This document shows positions 27,847 to 49,214 of a stretch of 64,000 bases of DNA, piece by piece; positions within the stretch are counted from its first letter, which is position 1; each line of letters begins with the position of its first letter. A model generated the notes under the pieces. The model saw only the letters and a list, made by a program, of their open reading frames with translations, was not told where the DNA came from and ran no database searches. Origin of the DNA: Stieleria neptunia (GTDB lineage Bacteria; Planctomycetota; Planctomycetia; Pirellulales; Pirellulaceae); contig NZ_CP037423.1 of assembly GCF_007754155.1 (NCBI RefSeq), forward strand, positions 8,676,938 through 8,740,937, read 5' to 3'. The position numbers and the translations under genes were made by a program.

Positions 27847-31563
<3,717 letters not shown>

Positions 31564-31586
31564 CCAGTCGAATTCCCCGCCGATCT

Positions 31587-32388
31587 CGTTCCAGGGCTCC
31601 GCCTTGGAACGCAATGCCCCCGAGGCTCCGCCTCGTCCAACATTCAACCGGAAGGCGGAGCCTTCCAATCAGCCCGTCCCCAGGCAGAGCCTGGGAACGA
31701 GAAACGAGAAACAGACCGGAGGGCTTGCGCCCTGCCGCTAAAACCTCGTAAAACACAGCCAAACTCGTTCCAAGGCTCCGCCTTGGAACGCAATGCCCCC
31801 GAGGCTCCGCCTCACCCAGCAGCCAACCGGAAGGCGGAGCCTTCCAATCAGCCCGTCCCCAGGCAGAGCCTGGGAACGAGAAAGCACGACCCGAGAACGG
31901 AATCTCCAATGCAGCCAAACTCGTTCCAAGGCTCCGCCTTGGAACGCAATGCCCCCGAGGCTCCGCCTCACCCAGCAGCCAACCGGAAGGCGGAGCCTTC
32001 CAATCAGCCCGTCCCCAGGCAGAGCCTGGGAACGAGGAAGCACGACCCGAGAACGGAATCTCCAATGCAGCCAAACTCGTTCCAAGGCTCCGCCTTGGAA
32101 CGCAATGCCCCCGAGGCTCCGCCTCACCCAGCAGCCAACCGGAAGGCGGAGCCTTCCAATCAGCCCGTCCCCAGGCAGAGCCTGGGAACGAGAAAGCACG
32201 ACCCGAGAACGGAATCTCCAATGCAGCCAAACTCGTTCCAAGGCTCCGCCTTGGAACGCAATGCCCCCGAGGCTCCGCCTCACCCAGCAGCCAACCGGAA
32301 GGCGGAGCCTTCCAATCAGCCCGTCCCCAGGCAGAGCCTGGGAACGAGGAAGCACGACCCGAGAACGGAATCTCCAATGTTCGCCAAT
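31587..32388. repeat. Tandem 156-bp repeat array upstream of waaA
   Basis: Four near-identical 156-bp units (31765, 31921, 32077, 32233 as unit starts), preceded by a diverged partial unit at ~31587-31700. Each unit holds four palindromes: CGTTCCAAGGCTCCGCCTTG(GAACG), GAGGCTCCGCCTC, GGAAGGCGGAGCCTTCC and CCCAGGCAGAGCCTGGG. The 3' end GAACGGAATCTCCAATG is the translation start region of waaA. Units differ at one base (GAGAAAGC or GAGGAAGC) in the order A, G, A, G. Period 156 = 52 codons and is stop-free in several frames, giving false ORFs on both strands. Confidence 0.95.
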
Positions 32389-33705
32389 GCCGTCTACTTG
32401 ATCGCGCTCACGGCACTCTCGCCGTGGATTCTGTATCGCCGGGTGCGGCACGGACGCTACCGCCGCGGGTGGCGACAGAAACTACTGGGCCTGTCGCCTG
32501 CCGAGGCGCGTCGTCTGCGCGGTGAAACCCCAACGGCGGATTGCCTTTGGCTGCACGCGGTCAGCGTCGGCGAAGTCAACTTGCTCGGCGGGCTGGTCAA
32601 GCGTTTGCAGACACAGTTCCCCCAGACGTCGATCGTGATCAGTTCCAGCACCGACACCGGATACGACCTGGCCGTCCAGCGCTTCGGAGCCGACCGCGTG
32701 TTCTTCTGCCCACTCGACTTTTCCTGGGCGGTCAAGCGCACCCTGGCCACTCTCCAGCCGAAGCTGTTGGTGCTCGCCGAACTTGAACTCTGGCCGAACC
32801 TGATCCAAACCGCCCGACAGCGAAACACCGACGTGATCGTCATCAATGGACGGTTGAGCCAACGCAGCGCCGCCGGCTATCAACGATTCGGCTGGCTGAC
32901 GCGTTCGATCTTCACATCACTGAGCAGCGTTCAATGCCAAGACGAATCTTCGGCAGACCGCTTTGTCGCCTGCGGAACACCCCGGTCACGCATCGCCGTC
33001 AGCGGTTCGCTGAAATTTGACGATGCCCCGCAAACGCGTGAATGCGTCGAAGTCCAATCGCGCGCCCGCTGGGCAGGCGTCGATCCCTGGCACATGGTCT
33101 GGGTCGTCGGCAGCACGCAAGAAGGCGAAGAAAAAATAGCGTTGGACGTCTACCGACGACTCCGCGGGCGCCACCCCGAACTGCGGCTGATCCTGGTGCC
33201 ACGCCACCCCGAACGGTTTGACCGCGTGGCGCAATTGATTGATGCCGAAGGGCTGCTCGCGCACCGTCGCTCGCGGGACGGCTCATTGGAAGATTTGAAA
33301 TGGACCGCCGATCGAGTCCTGCTGATCGACACCATCGGTGAACTGCGGCACTGGTGGGGCGTCGGCCAGATCGCCACCGTCGGCGGCACCTTCGGCGACC
33401 GCGGTGGACAAAACATGCTTGAACCGGCCGGCTACGGCAATGCCATCGCCTTTGGCCCCGACACCCGAAACTTTACCGACATCGCCGAGCGACTGCTCGA
33501 CGCCGGTGGCGCGGTGCGGGCGGCCAACGCGACCGAATTGGAAGCGTTCCTGGAGCGTTGCCTGACCGACATCCCGGCCGCCGATGCGCTCGGACGCTCC
33601 GCCAAGCAGGTCGTCGAGCAACACCGCGGCGCGAGCGAACGCACGGTCGACGCCATCGGCCAGTTCCTCGCCCCCGACGATCAGTCACAACGACGCGCGG
33701 CATAA
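32377..33705 (+). CDS. waaA: 3-deoxy-D-manno-octulosonic acid (KDO) transferase, GT30
   Basis: 442 residues from MFANAVYLIALTALSPWILYRR, a membrane anchor typical of WaaA N-termini. The GT-B domains include LWLHAVSVGEVNLLGGLV (~50-67), VLAELELWPNLI (~127-138) and GQIATVGGTFGDRGGQNMLEPAGYG (~330-354). WaaA adds KDO to lipid A precursor on the inner face of the cytoplasmic membrane, consistent with a Gram-negative-type outer membrane in planctomycetes. The frame stays open 594 bp upstream through the repeat array, so N-terminally extended products are possible in principle; the conserved N-terminus argues that 32377 is the main start. Confidence 0.93.
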   Translation: MFANAVYLIALTALSPWILYRRVRHGRYRRGWRQKLLGLSPAEARRLRGETPTADCLWLHAVSVGEVNLLGGLVKRLQTQFPQTSIVISSSTDTGYDLAVQRFGADRVFFCPLDFSWAVKRTLATLQPKLLVLAELELWPNLIQTARQRNTDVIVINGRLSQRSAAGYQRFGWLTRSIFTSLSSVQCQDESSADRFVACGTPRSRIAVSGSLKFDDAPQTRECVEVQSRARWAGVDPWHMVWVVGSTQEGEEKIALDVYRRLRGRHPELRLILVPRHPERFDRVAQLIDAEGLLAHRRSRDGSLEDLKWTADRVLLIDTIGELRHWWGVGQIATVGGTFGDRGGQNMLEPAGYGNAIAFGPDTRNFTDIAERLLDAGGAVRAANATELEAFLERCLTDIPAADALGRSAKQVVEQHRGASERTVDAIGQFLAPDDQSQRRAA

Positions 33706-40800: not shown

Positions 40801-42529
40801 GCAACTCGCAGATGCCATCGCCGAGCTCCCAAGTCGACGTCCCCTCGATCGTCAACGTCAACACACCCGACACCAGTTCGGGGCGCAGCGTTCCGCCGGC
40901 CGGATTGGCGGTCGACGGATCGATGACTCCGGCGACGTTGCCGGGCAGATCGACATCAATCAGCGATTGCCCGTCTTCACGACGCAAGACTTGATACGGT
41001 GCCTCGATCGAGTTGACTCGAATGGCCGTGACGGTCCCCAGCGGAGCACGCAGACGCAGACGGTTGCGTTGGCGGGGGAACTGGAGCGTCATCCGGTGAA
41101 TCCACGAAACGCCCGACAAGTCCACCTCGTACTGTTTGGATTCTCGGCGGATGAACAACGGTTGGTTCGTGTCGTCGAGAGACCGTCGCCGGGCAAAGAT
41201 CTCCAGCCGATTCAGCCCCCCGGCTTCCAACACATACCAACGGATGTCGCCGGTACGGGTCTGGACATCCGCGTCCGGAGGCGGGCCGGGGCGTTCGACC
41301 AGCACACCCTGGCTGGATTCCAAGACGATGTCGCTGGGCGTTGAAATGACCAATCGCGTCTGTGCGGTCCGCGGCAAGCGCAATTCAAAGCGTTTCGCCG
41401 CGCCCAACGATTGACTCCGCAACGTCCACCCGAATCGTATTTCAGATTGAGTCCAACCGTCGGATAGGAGGTCCGCCGACGAGCGGCTGTCCGCTGCCCC
41501 CGCGGCCCCGTCTGCCTCTCGCTCTGGCTCCCGAATCTCTGGCTGCTGAGATGCGGCGGGATCGTCGGCGACGACCGACTTGGGGATCACCGCAATCAAT
41601 TCGCCCGCCGCATCAATTTCTAACCGCGGCACATTCACCGTCGACGCCGACAGCGGCGATCGCAGCCCGCCGGCGGAGTCCGTGATCGCCAAATTGACCT
41701 GTCCCAGCGTCCGCCGAATGATCGGGCGACGCTTGTGCTCGAGCACCAACTTGCTGCCCTCGCTGATGAACAGATCTTCGTCCAGCCGAATGTCATAAAA
41801 CCCGCTGACCAAGCGGGCCTGATCCGAATCCGCGAATCGCTCGGCCCCGGTGCCGATGGCGTCACGCAGTTCATTGATCGAGACCGCGCGAAAATCGGAC
41901 GGCACCAAATCGACGATCTGCGAAAGGAACACTCCGATCGGGCGCAGCGGCCGACCGTCACGGTCGCGAAGCGGCAGCGGTAACGTCAAGCGGTCGCGCG
42001 ATGCCGCTGCAACATCCTCGTGACCCCCATCGGTCCACTCAGAGCCAGAATCCTCCTCCTCCTTCCCTCCCGTCTCCTTCTCCCCCGTCTCCTTCTCCCC
42101 CGTCTCCTTCCCTCCCGTCTCCTTCCCTCCCGTCTCCTTCCCTCCCGTCTCCTTCTCCCCTATCTCCTTGTCTCCCGTCTCCTTGTCTCCCGTCTCCTTG
42201 TCTCCCGTCTCCTTGTCTCCCGTCTCCTTGTCTCCCGTCTCCTTGTCTCCCGCCTCCTTCTCTCCCGTCTCCTTCTCTCCCGTCTCCTTCTCTCCCGCCT
42301 CCTTCTCTCCCACCACCGCGGGCGGTGGTGTCTCGCCGGGTTCTTGTTGACCGAACCCGGTCCCGGGCCACAGCATCAGACAACCGATCACGACCGGCAC
42401 GCACATCAACCCGGATCGGATGTCGAAGAAACGACCGGCAGCGCCGCGGCGAAGCTTCGACGTGCCCGACGATGACGCCCCGGCGTGCCCGGTCTGGCAC
42501 GCCTTGTTGTCGCTCACCGGGCGGTTCAT
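34856..42529 (-). CDS. Giant membrane-anchored envelope protein (2557 aa), unknown function
   Basis: Residues ~40-62 form a signal/anchor (MCVPVVIGCLMLWPGTGFGQ), followed by ~17 five-residue repeats (GEKET/GDKET/GGKET, residues ~73-158). A long beta-rich region runs to ~1150. Serine/glutamate-glycine repeats (GESGES) lie at ~1143-1160, two or three TM helices at ~1165-1245, and a second signal-like segment LMLAIGTLAAAPGVATAQ at ~1293-1311. A further ~1170-residue beta-rich region ends in two or three TM helices at ~2480-2545. I recognise no domain. The internal signal-like segment and a second half of ~1240 residues suggest a fusion of two ancestral proteins. Its ATG overlaps the upstream stop (ATGA). 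Confidence 0.82.
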   Translation of the reverse strand: MNRPVSDNKACQTGHAGASSSGTSKLRRGAAGRFFDIRSGLMCVPVVIGCLMLWPGTGFGQQEPGETPPPAVVGEKEAGEKETGEKETGEKEAGDKETGDKETGDKETGDKETGDKETGDKEIGEKETGGKETGGKETGGKETGEKETGEKETGGKEEEDSGSEWTDGGHEDVAAASRDRLTLPLPLRDRDGRPLRPIGVFLSQIVDLVPSDFRAVSINELRDAIGTGAERFADSDQARLVSGFYDIRLDEDLFISEGSKLVLEHKRRPIIRRTLGQVNLAITDSAGGLRSPLSASTVNVPRLEIDAAGELIAVIPKSVVADDPAASQQPEIREPEREADGAAGAADSRSSADLLSDGWTQSEIRFGWTLRSQSLGAAKRFELRLPRTAQTRLVISTPSDIVLESSQGVLVERPGPPPDADVQTRTGDIRWYVLEAGGLNRLEIFARRRSLDDTNQPLFIRRESKQYEVDLSGVSWIHRMTLQFPRQRNRLRLRAPLGTVTAIRVNSIEAPYQVLRREDGQSLIDVDLPGNVAGVIDPSTANPAGGTLRPELVSGVLTLTIEGTSTWELGDGICELPSVTPVEPNVLWTEASTQTIVAVMDPLEVAQWDLPPTWRQSIQTPTRAGETLLIADGPPPRNAQSDATWSRLRLIEKEERFIDAIWTRLRVQQTPAPEVRSNSRIRCRLMQNHQSPFRMNVNPDWNVDSVTVVGSGRRITVPVSANQWVLWPTPSESAQATFEIEVIARKNLPRNRNQLAMNSTWIVRPEQHVGSHLISIQPPPLRRWDGNSVMLPGRFESSTLDEESIAFFQPTSETLLIRSPTGEIPAVTLEPVDDSFGVALRHVIETEGNDVAETIVVRAETTQPISELSVLTGNARQEEFDWSLRRTDQSATVSLPSSSVERMPLDPLGTYLITLEGRDLRQYELVGRRYFPVADQLTLSLPSVRRTRGQTAEVTIDASWEVTEIPPGVQLVPGAEPTDSLQPFGDQPQHLRYEPLLRPEIQLRRARRDAAATLIWDQRFDVVANSRNEDLFHLVADVSTRKPIRVSFDDELEIVSVSRNNTGYVPDRVGVGEIWINPQKQSDQISVLMRRRHSSSGWFRRCPIPRVEVEGNVIRNQASYQAGAGTLLVHRVSASHLLDWYAGESGESGESGESGESGESAEGAEGAELILVSRDAAIGLGWLTATVLFCLGWSIARWFPMGVHTLFVLVVTAISGSIIWWPAQQAIVGWVAVPLAAAALLQVVMTDRRQRDAKKTNGTDGALRSDDTRSQRSARDRSADFSVSATRSILMLAIGTLAAAPGVATAQDSSGEEPRREIDSSGDGETRRNDPIELLVPIGADYAPAGDKVYMSRADYESIRSVVDPDRPVDAQFQSAEYRVVLTPPRDAAGSITAEVQADYQIQLVRESTRVRLPVRADSLRRIEWVGDGETQIIRFTVDERGMVTATIPSSRQSLLRLTYLPSVLMLGGDSENVAGRGDGLDRPLPVDRDSGDSLGGPDPFSDTADGDVLQGMATTVIRLAIPAIHSATLIVEAPREIQVDSLGEPLGRSLFRPELGRYEADLGPIRELSIRCRPVKRPGQPAAQTLSRAYRISAGIESTIVECEINPEESLREGDTVQLTILGGPPPSLTSVGWAMAESDVDSPDRPSSVNATLGNGIYRFEKQSSIGTPIRLLWRLPSVLNDPTSTEDSETMPIPEVFASASQRSSPTLFAIESAGSIRVSELAKGSQPVTEDEFLAAWRGYPGKIQRAFVIKEAFPSFVLLQDKYPTPTVKLDHRLHVAETKMELRLKADLVDLRPSLQRLRISIPPRFRLVNCFVNGEAVTSITPLTVKTSTGTRTELAIGDNRINGATKIEVLAESLVPIRGRTSLPRFAISSDGQTHQTYRITRERSLDVTLTQPPNTQPQNTRDRPAENAASDGGPTGTWTPAALTKDDLLAGRIPVVDSRSGSTPSADDQIVVSRRAAGSMFTCDQITRMRYSDGQWFCDTLLELPGGKRPDYVDLTIPTRWSADLDVTDARVWAKRESSDDVVTVIRVAMPDEAVQSTRGDEKVRRVQITGSLKNRDQVRVSVPAVTVLGARLRNHRIAVPGQLTTQAIQWRAQSVRAVKATEGWMDAFKNEVESPERYSFYTPIETNWSIELEPLLQATINPLALCCDARVFLDGDHALVLQRFDVLPETRNEVSVVLPIGATCIGIWSAGREVDLSDVPPDADAGDGSDDATPQHPTKVRVPLAYSRLPQSLEVLVEVPVAERAITHYLSDLVGVPTRDIWVTFYQAPLADQNRQLKLEQQVDFGESSSNDFERQGSMRAVALAGSVVTAIDRSRDMLAERSDEEIKRWLLPWIARYQGIARRSGHVFRMVESSTPTGDSATTDSTTPIAAESAASTGSKPESDPAEASSPVADGSSLHRDAQKRWDAYDRQLLQLAGRFLQSNPELPQTLFAQHRFSDFDVVAIRRLDSIEQGPPLTQTFTQRESLEDLLVNGITLLTFGLAIILMWPFRGRFQGWIQEPAVWLFVIGVLGLFLIPIPVAVTLMIIAVTVPLINRLKSKSTSTGL
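39051..39103 (-). repeat. 9-bp in-frame tandem repeat (GES) in the giant protein gene
   Basis: Five to six copies of a 9-bp unit GATTCGCCC encoding Gly-Glu-Ser on the minus strand. It lies just before the internal TM helices and probably forms a flexible linker of variable length. Confidence 0.85.
42053..42312 (-). repeat. 15-bp in-frame tandem repeat (GxKET) in the giant protein gene
   Basis: About 17 imperfect 15-bp units (CCCGTCTCCTTCTCT-like on the plus strand) encode G-E/D/G-K-E-T/A. Variants cluster in blocks (GEKET, GDKET, GGKET), a sign of stepwise duplication. The segment is strongly charged and probably disordered. Confidence 0.9.
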
Positions 42530-48815: not shown

Positions 48816-49020
48816 TGGATGGTTTCCCGGCGTGATGAGCAAACGTTTAGCGGCCAACAACCTCGATTGCCGCCTGTTTCGCAGGACTCGAAAGATACTT
48901 CCCCCACACACCCATCAAAGCGACGAAGTTGGCGGTAGAATCGAGACTGCGAAGGCCGACAAGTGTTTGTCGGCCCAGTGATTGAACGCCGTGCGATCGC
49001 CAGGGTTTCGCCGGCTCAGC

Positions 49021-49172
49021 CGAATTAAGCAGGGCCAGCCGAATTAAGCAGGGCCAGCCGAATTAAGCAGGGCCAGCCGAATTAAGCAGGGCCAGCCGAA
49101 TTAAGCAGGGCCAGCCGAATTAAGCAGGGCCAGCCGAATTAAGCAGGGCAAGTCGAATTAAGCAGGGCCAGT
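49021..49172. repeat. 19-bp tandem repeat (VNTR), eight copies
   Basis: Eight uninterrupted copies of GAATTAAGCAGGGCCAGCC (one base offset); the last two carry an A or T change. The array ends 42 bp before the CPXCG start codon, so it occupies the promoter/leader of that gene, and it fills most of the 399-bp gap after the EF-hand gene (48816-49214), which has no other gene. No spacers, so not a CRISPR. Confidence 0.93.
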
Positions 49173-49214
49173 CGATTTCATTCGCCGAACCACTCAACAC
49201 TTCCGGGCAAACCG

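Follow-up and report, generated by a model that had tools for sequence, protein, structure and literature searches.

Bacterial variable-number tandem repeats at gene starts place tandem units in contact with the start of translation. Among bacterial satellites, repeat lengths in multiples of three are described as predominant (PMC6749651), and clusters of REP elements are described as occurring in tandem together with flanking DNA of variable length (PMC3733652). NMR work defined the RsmE site as a hairpin whose loop is an ANGGAN hexaloop; selected CsrA ligands mostly carry GGA in a six-base loop on a stem of four or fewer pairs, and the reported bridging range of CsrA is 10 to 63 nt (PMC7652899). 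Loss of CsrA is reported to alter lipopolysaccharide profiles in other bacteria, and Kdo2-lipid A is given as the minimal structure that Escherichia coli needs under standard conditions (PMC4651636).

Here, we analyzed a 64,000-nucleotide stretch of the Stieleria neptunia genome (the window), in which a tandem array precedes waaA. On balance, we consider it probable that tandem amplification of a REP-like element captured the waaA start, that the array is close to neutral, that the hairpin copied with it is a candidate site for a CsrA-family protein, and that most translation begins at the last ATG.

A 156-bp array between secA and waaA

Tandem Repeats Finder reported positions 31756 to 32379 of the window as a tandem repeat with a period of 156, 4.0 copies, and a 99% match. 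The array occupies the gap between secA and waaA, the start codon of which lies at 32377. The features of this gap are as follows.

27847..31563, + strand: secA, the upstream gene, with Pfam SecA domains; the secA end is found beside waaA in relatives
31579..31704, + strand: older diverged single module, its first palindrome about 22 nt behind the secA stop; Rhodopirellula sp. SM50 has a module at the equivalent place
31756..31911, + strand: unit 1 (A at 31881), last codon ATG 31909
31912..32067, + strand: unit 2 (G at 32037), last codon ATG 32065
32068..32223, + strand: unit 3 (A at 32193), last codon ATG 32221
32224..32379, + strand: unit 4 (G at 32349), last codon the native waaA ATG 32377
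31764..31880, + strand: 117-bp module of unit 1, with four small palindromes, recurring at +156, +312, and +468

A preliminary description of this DNA had claimed four near-identical 156-bp units within 31587 to 32388, each with four palindromes and the waaA start region at its end. The units, their palindromes, and their end (GAACGGAATCTCCAATG) were all seen; the interval holds for the array, while its remainder mixes in the older, diverged module. That fifth module is 93 to 94% identical to the array units over 126 nt. Each 156-bp unit consists of a 117-bp four-palindrome module and a 39-bp linker, which by reading comprises 31 bases ending in the waaA ATG plus 8 bases of the left flank. The four palindromes are also predicted to pair with one another into one long hairpin (−63.1 kcal/mol on the + strand and −80.1 kcal/mol on the − strand), so that the module folds end to end, which amounts to terminal inverted repeats as in a MITE. 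The first palindrome has 13 matches in the window at ≤3 mismatches, whereas 100 shuffles gave 0.00 on average; its recurrence is therefore not due to chance. In an Rfam search over 31000 to 33000, the hits were all to microRNA families and fell far short of the gathering scores; we took them as chance matches to hairpins.

Pairwise comparison of the units revealed a single variable position, A at 31881, G at 32037, A at 32193, and G at 32349, with unit 1 identical to unit 3 and unit 2 to unit 4. Since this position is the third base of an AGA/AGG arginine codon in the waaA frame, the difference is synonymous in that frame. The alternation had been read as a sign of growth first by 156 and then by 312 bp; the base pattern is as described, and it fits a 156-bp duplication, a substitution, and a 312-bp duplication, a two-step growth that we judge likely. 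By reading, no microhomology was evident at the first duplication junction.

A single genome of S. neptunia was compared, which leaves some room for the view that the array is an artefact of assembly. Such an artefact is very unlikely, given that the genome is closed (PMC7378531) and consists of a single 10,975,817-base contig, that the variable base alternates, and that regularly spaced matches recur widely elsewhere in the S. neptunia genome and also in that of another species (G001).

Two further repeats were noted in the window. At 42059 to 42311, a 15-bp repeat of 16.9 copies lies within a reverse-strand open reading frame (ORF) of 2557 aa and encodes a run of KETG-type pentapeptides. At 49017 to 49175, there is a 19-bp tandem repeat (8.4 copies, 97% match).

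The module is dispersed and lies behind genes

In a search of the S. neptunia genome, the whole unit gave 148 match lines and the module gave 133. These figures include both strands and exceed the number of sites, because the module is nearly palindromic and many places match on both strands. Within the genus, 10 of the 14 genomes contain the module, that of S. neptunia among them. Twenty regions picked for clustered or strong matches, together with a piece of the window, were scanned with Tandem Repeats Finder, and two dimer readings of the same arrays and all rows with a period of <100 were dropped. This left 18 array rows, the waaA array among them, with periods between 124 and 243 bp; an array is present in 15 of the 20 regions. 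Linkers, as read from the consensus units, vary from array to array, except at one locus (L063), where an insertion has divided a single array into two rows. Periods divisible by 3 were found in 6 of the 18 rows, as chance would give; thus, the predominance of multiples of three described for satellites (PMC6749651) was not seen for arrays of this module.

The insertion that splits the L063 array (L063:3056-4754) is about 1.7 kb long, lies inside palindromes of the array, and has the ends GGGCTGCGCAAAA. The same ends border arrays at L055, L058, and L066 (five array edges). A 427-aa ORF within the insertion had no match in Pfam or NCBIfam. The element resembles an insertion sequence with the palindrome as its target.

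Placement of the module relative to genes was determined with gene calls from a home-made codon-score caller. Among 49 module clusters from 36 regions and the window, 24 were convergent, 19 were tandem, 3 were inside an ORF, 3 were unclassified, and none was divergent (0 of 43 classified), the waaA array being entered as convergent with waaA uncalled, so that its true class is tandem. In an 864-kb sample, made up of 800 kb chosen independently of the module plus the window, 11 palindrome clusters comprised 6 tandem, 5 convergent, and 0 divergent placements; gaps of ≥30 nt in the same sample were tandem in 231, convergent in 70, and divergent in 75 cases (75/376). The lack of divergent clusters indicates that the module sits behind genes, like REP elements.

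The genome has eight matches to PF01797 (RAYT, Y1_Tnp). None of these eight loci carried the palindrome within about 1.5 kb on each side, as searched with three exact patterns, and RAYT as the mover of the module is thus unsupported. Judged by eye, a GTAG/CGTC tag is absent from the foot of the first palindrome; the arm of the fourth palindrome reads CGTC in the waaA array and CGTT in other copies, perhaps as a chance variant. Because none of the RAYT loci carries the palindrome and the tag was assessed by eye only, we did not file the module as a tagged REP. Some RAYT genes (L075, L078, and L079) are flanked by other hairpins (CCTGGGGCAACGCCCCAGG; TGCACCGGCGTAGC...), which are possibly true REP families.

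The secA-waaA gap in relatives

WaaA of S. neptunia shares 93% identity with that of Rhodopirellula sp. SM50, 93% with that of Stieleria sedimenti, and 91% with that of strain TBK1r, and secA lies beside waaA in most of the relatives' loci examined. The 156-bp array was absent from all relatives' waaA leaders examined in full; at three loci (L026, L028, and L037), 60 nt of the leader was covered. The SM50 gap has one module and one extra palindrome, that of S. sedimenti has one such palindrome among other repeats, that of TBK1r has a remnant, and that of JC639 has one palindrome. In another species (G001, locus L013), the same gap holds a different, independent array of ~60-bp palindrome units. 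Repeats have thus landed or grown more than once in the secA-waaA gap, and the 156-bp array is known from S. neptunia alone.

A conserved hairpin at the waaA start

Each unit copies a short leader hairpin, the predicted stem pair probabilities of which are given below.

31893..31906, + strand: leader hairpin copy 1, GAGA-ACGGAA-TCTC, an ANGGAN hexaloop over the Shine-Dalgarno sequence; stem pair probability 0.87-0.98
32049..32062, + strand: leader hairpin copy 2; stem pair probability 0.85-0.95
32205..32218, + strand: leader hairpin copy 3; stem pair probability 0.87-0.98
32361..32374, + strand: native waaA leader hairpin, predicted to be weak; stem pair probability 0.04 or 0.34

The native hairpin competes with another fold, and its two values come from contexts that are one base apart in length. 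The five closest relatives retain GAGAACGGAATCTC immediately before the waaA start; the leaders of other relatives carry GAGAATGGATTCTC, GGAAAGGATTCC, GGGAAAGGATTCCC, or CACGAACGGATTCGTG in that place.

We aligned 37 distinct leaders, which are related rather than independent, on a GGA at Shine-Dalgarno distance. This GGA occurs in 32 of the 37 leaders, in 28 distinct blocks, and its invariance there is by construction, because the blocks were anchored on it. All 28 distinct blocks also have an A two bases before the GGA, which played no part in the anchoring; the base adjoining the GGA varies. In the stem columns (3-6/13-16), 88.4% of cells are paired, compared to 61.0% after shuffling; stem covariation is 0.685 versus 0.192, and both sides are altered in a compensatory manner in 27 of 112 cells versus 6.9 in shuffles. 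A fixed tetraloop with contiguous pairing was also tried and gave at least 4 pairs in 11 of 32 leaders against a mean of 4.7 and a maximum of 10 in 1000 arm swaps; the hexaloop fits better. Under a strict rule (an ANGGAN hexaloop with at least 4 Watson-Crick pairs at −50 to −1), the hairpin was found in 22 of the 37 distinct waaA leaders, S. neptunia included, six of the 22 sharing GAGAACGGAATCTC, compared to 7 of 3817 control segments from the same loci; the other 15 leaders failed the rule. The mean stem probability exceeded 0.5 in 13 of the 22, and the predicted stability was −2.9 to −7.8 kcal/mol in seven examples folded.

As a background, we took an 800-kb S. neptunia sample with 373 called genes, of which 122 have a GGA at Shine-Dalgarno distance. 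Of these 122 starts, 34 have the A two bases ahead of the GGA, and 2 have a 4-bp stem. Thus, the hairpin is a feature of waaA and not the usual start signal of the genome, and a CsrA-type hairpin as a general start feature of S. neptunia is ruled out. A related pattern followed by ATG had 4 matches in the S. neptunia genome and 0 in a reversed control. The 11-Mb genome contains exactly four matches to GAGAANGGANTCTC, which are the four units; nine other picked genomes of the genus contain 15, of which 7 are at waaA, and the reversed control gave 2 in total across the ten genomes.

The pattern GGGAANGGANTCCC was searched in 15 other picked genomes, two of which belong to one genus, so that several matches are orthologous, and gave 25 matches versus 1 for the control. 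In 21 of the 25, the start codon of an ORF of ≥60 aa follows after 0 to 5 nt, a proportion for which no chance level was computed; 8 of these ORFs are waaA, and among the rest are a FliN-like gene and two orthologous ParA-like genes. Outside the order, where start positions are uncertain, the hairpin was found in 3 of 29 loci, all from one family (3 of its 5) in the same class, and in none of the remaining 24 loci, one of which (L160) had no readable leader. Conservation across the phylum was therefore rejected.

The hairpin as a candidate CsrA site

At known CsrA/RsmA sites over the Shine-Dalgarno sequence, such as those of glgC, cstA, and hag, a short stem likewise holds GGA in its loop where the Shine-Dalgarno sequence lies, and the ANGGAN hexaloop is shared as well (PMC7652899). 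The waaA leader hairpin resembles this architecture and, judged by sequence comparison, is a candidate CsrA/RsmA site. CsrA (PF02599) was found in 40 of 40 genomes searched, with 8 matches in the S. neptunia genome. In the titles and abstract openings examined from the literature on CsrA together with either planctomycetes or waaA, we found no report of CsrA control of waaA.

A GGA in a leader is also a plain Shine-Dalgarno sequence. It is quite possible that the hairpin is an ordinary structured ribosome-binding site, or the site of another RNA-binding protein, as would be suggested by the 32 of 37 leaders in which GGA has the spacing of a Shine-Dalgarno sequence and by the small predicted stabilities of the seven folded examples. 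Nonetheless, the A two bases before the GGA is found in 28 of 28 blocks but in 34 of 122 background starts, the stems covary, and a hairpin of like form precedes the fliN-like and ParA-like starts. We prefer to regard the hairpin as a putative CsrA-family site.

Other Planctomycetia carry ANGGAN-form hairpins 0 to 3 nt before FliN-like, ParA-like, and apparent membrane-protein or lipoprotein genes (L209, L211, L213, L217, and L221), and these starts may form a possible CsrA regulon. CsrA matches number 3 to 14 per genome (G000 to G039), which indicates several paralogues.

Reading frame and site of translation initiation

The array opens into waaA as follows.

31783..32376, + strand: stop-free stretch in the waaA frame, 198 codons, from TTG 31783
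32377..33705, + strand: waaA (Kdo transferase), 442 aa; PF04413, E value 3.2e-56

WaaA is a sequence relative of the solved structures 2xci and 4bfc; its matches to the NCBIfam PRK05749 models are below the curated cut-offs. Read from TTG 31783, the waaA frame meets no stop before the one at 33705 (640 aa, i.e., +198 codons), and the copied ATGs at 31909, 32065, and 32221 could add 156, 104, and 52 residues to WaaA. The preliminary statement that these start codons lie in one open frame with waaA, with no stop between, is hence correct. The further suggestion, that extended WaaA forms of up to +198 residues arise, keeps its open frame and loses it as evidence: five of the six frames of the array are open and 6 of 18 array periods are multiples of three, and therefore neither frame nor openness argues for coding or for an extended WaaA. 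The position of the array in frame with waaA may be due to chance or may at most have let the variant survive. As a protein domain, the 198-residue extension received one Pfam match, which is below the cut-off.

Predicted folding bears on the choice among the four ATGs. The segment from −4 to +37 of each copied ATG forms a hairpin of −15.5 kcal/mol, the first hairpin of the module, compared to −4.2 kcal/mol at the native ATG. Opening the region from −18 to +15 would cost 12 to 13 kcal/mol at the copied ATGs versus 9.6 kcal/mol at the native one. The shorter region from −18 to +3 counts against a start at the last ATG, with 5.2 to 5.3 kcal/mol at the copied ATGs versus 7.5 kcal/mol at the native ATG. 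Taken together, the models suggest that most translation would start from the last ATG.

The array might instead have been retained for what it does, either by yielding an N-terminally extended WaaA or by letting copy number tune waaA translation. The four ATGs share one open frame and an identical Shine-Dalgarno region, the sole variable base is synonymous, and the region from −18 to +3 is predicted to be cheaper to open at the copied ATGs, all of which favors this view. On the other hand, the open frames and the unremarkable share of periods divisible by 3 are uninformative, a strong hairpin lies directly behind each copied ATG, and the array is missing from the relatives' leaders examined, so that the case for extended forms is further weakened. 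Moreover, the extension is hydrophilic (7 K+R and 5 D+E per unit) and would precede what appears from the sequence to be an N-terminal membrane anchor. Retention for either purpose is unlikely. Tuning by copy number nonetheless gains an unexpected basis, as each unit copies a conserved, putatively CsrA-type hairpin.

A possible multi-site leader

A further reading takes the array as a multi-site CsrA target, with up to four ANGGAN sites that folded modules would bring within bridging distance of their neighbors, so that waaA would be strongly controlled by CsrA or the leader would soak up CsrA. The only four GAGAANGGANTCTC matches in the genome are all in the array, and the three upstream hairpins are predicted to form (0.85 to 0.98). 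By coordinate arithmetic, the hairpins are spaced 142 nt apart, of which 117 nt is module; a folded module would leave 25 nt, which is within the 10- to 63-nt bridging range (PMC7652899). Against this, the minimum-free-energy fold of the whole leader pairs modules of neighboring units together instead of folding each singly, and an array as young and singular as this one could not reveal selection. We regard this reading as doubtful. We are scarcely less reserved about the broader proposal that, across Pirellulales and some other Planctomycetia, waaA translation is a conserved object of control by CsrA-family proteins, and that in S. neptunia the growth of a REP-like array raised the number of control sites to four, so that a repeat of selfish appearance became a multi-site CsrA leader with its sites brought within bridging distance by folded modules; this is rather improbable.

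Origin of the array and comparison with known systems

Under the preferred reading, in which a near-neutral array captured the start of waaA, the point of departure would be a module of the dispersed, REP-like, hairpin-forming type found behind gene ends, which lay between secA and waaA. The module would then have been duplicated in tandem together with its right-hand neighbor, the waaA translation-initiation region; one substitution would have followed the 156-bp duplication, after which the 312-bp dimer would have been duplicated. The palindromes may have been the points at which slippage or unequal recombination let the array grow. In ordinary relatives, the ribosome would face competition from CsrA at waaA, and in S. 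neptunia, CsrA proteins may bind the leader at up to four places. If so, a locally duplicating repeat can capture and multiply the start signal of a lipid A assembly gene, and the copied signal suggests a regulator of a lipid A step in Planctomycetota that can be put to the test.

The proposed site differs from known CsrA/RsmA sites in its target, waaA, in its phylum, Planctomycetota, and in its four tandem copies in the S. neptunia leader, its assignment resting on comparison only. Relative to variable-number tandem repeats at gene starts, the S. neptunia unit is large (156 bp) and is built of a dispersed element. With REP elements and BIME clusters, the module shares short palindromes, many copies, extragenic location, and a composite structure with inverted partners. 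Its 27-nt palindrome is within the 20 to 40 nt of REP palindromes and is present in high copy number; its clusters are extragenic and near gene 3′ ends, with 0 of 43 and 0 of 11 divergent; and the 18 array rows, with their differing linkers, correspond to the tandem elements with flanking DNA of BIME and REP clusters. Tandem REP-like clusters are known; in the literature examined, we met none that had captured a start codon. What sets the S. neptunia array apart from REP and BIME clusters is that its flanking segment includes a start codon.
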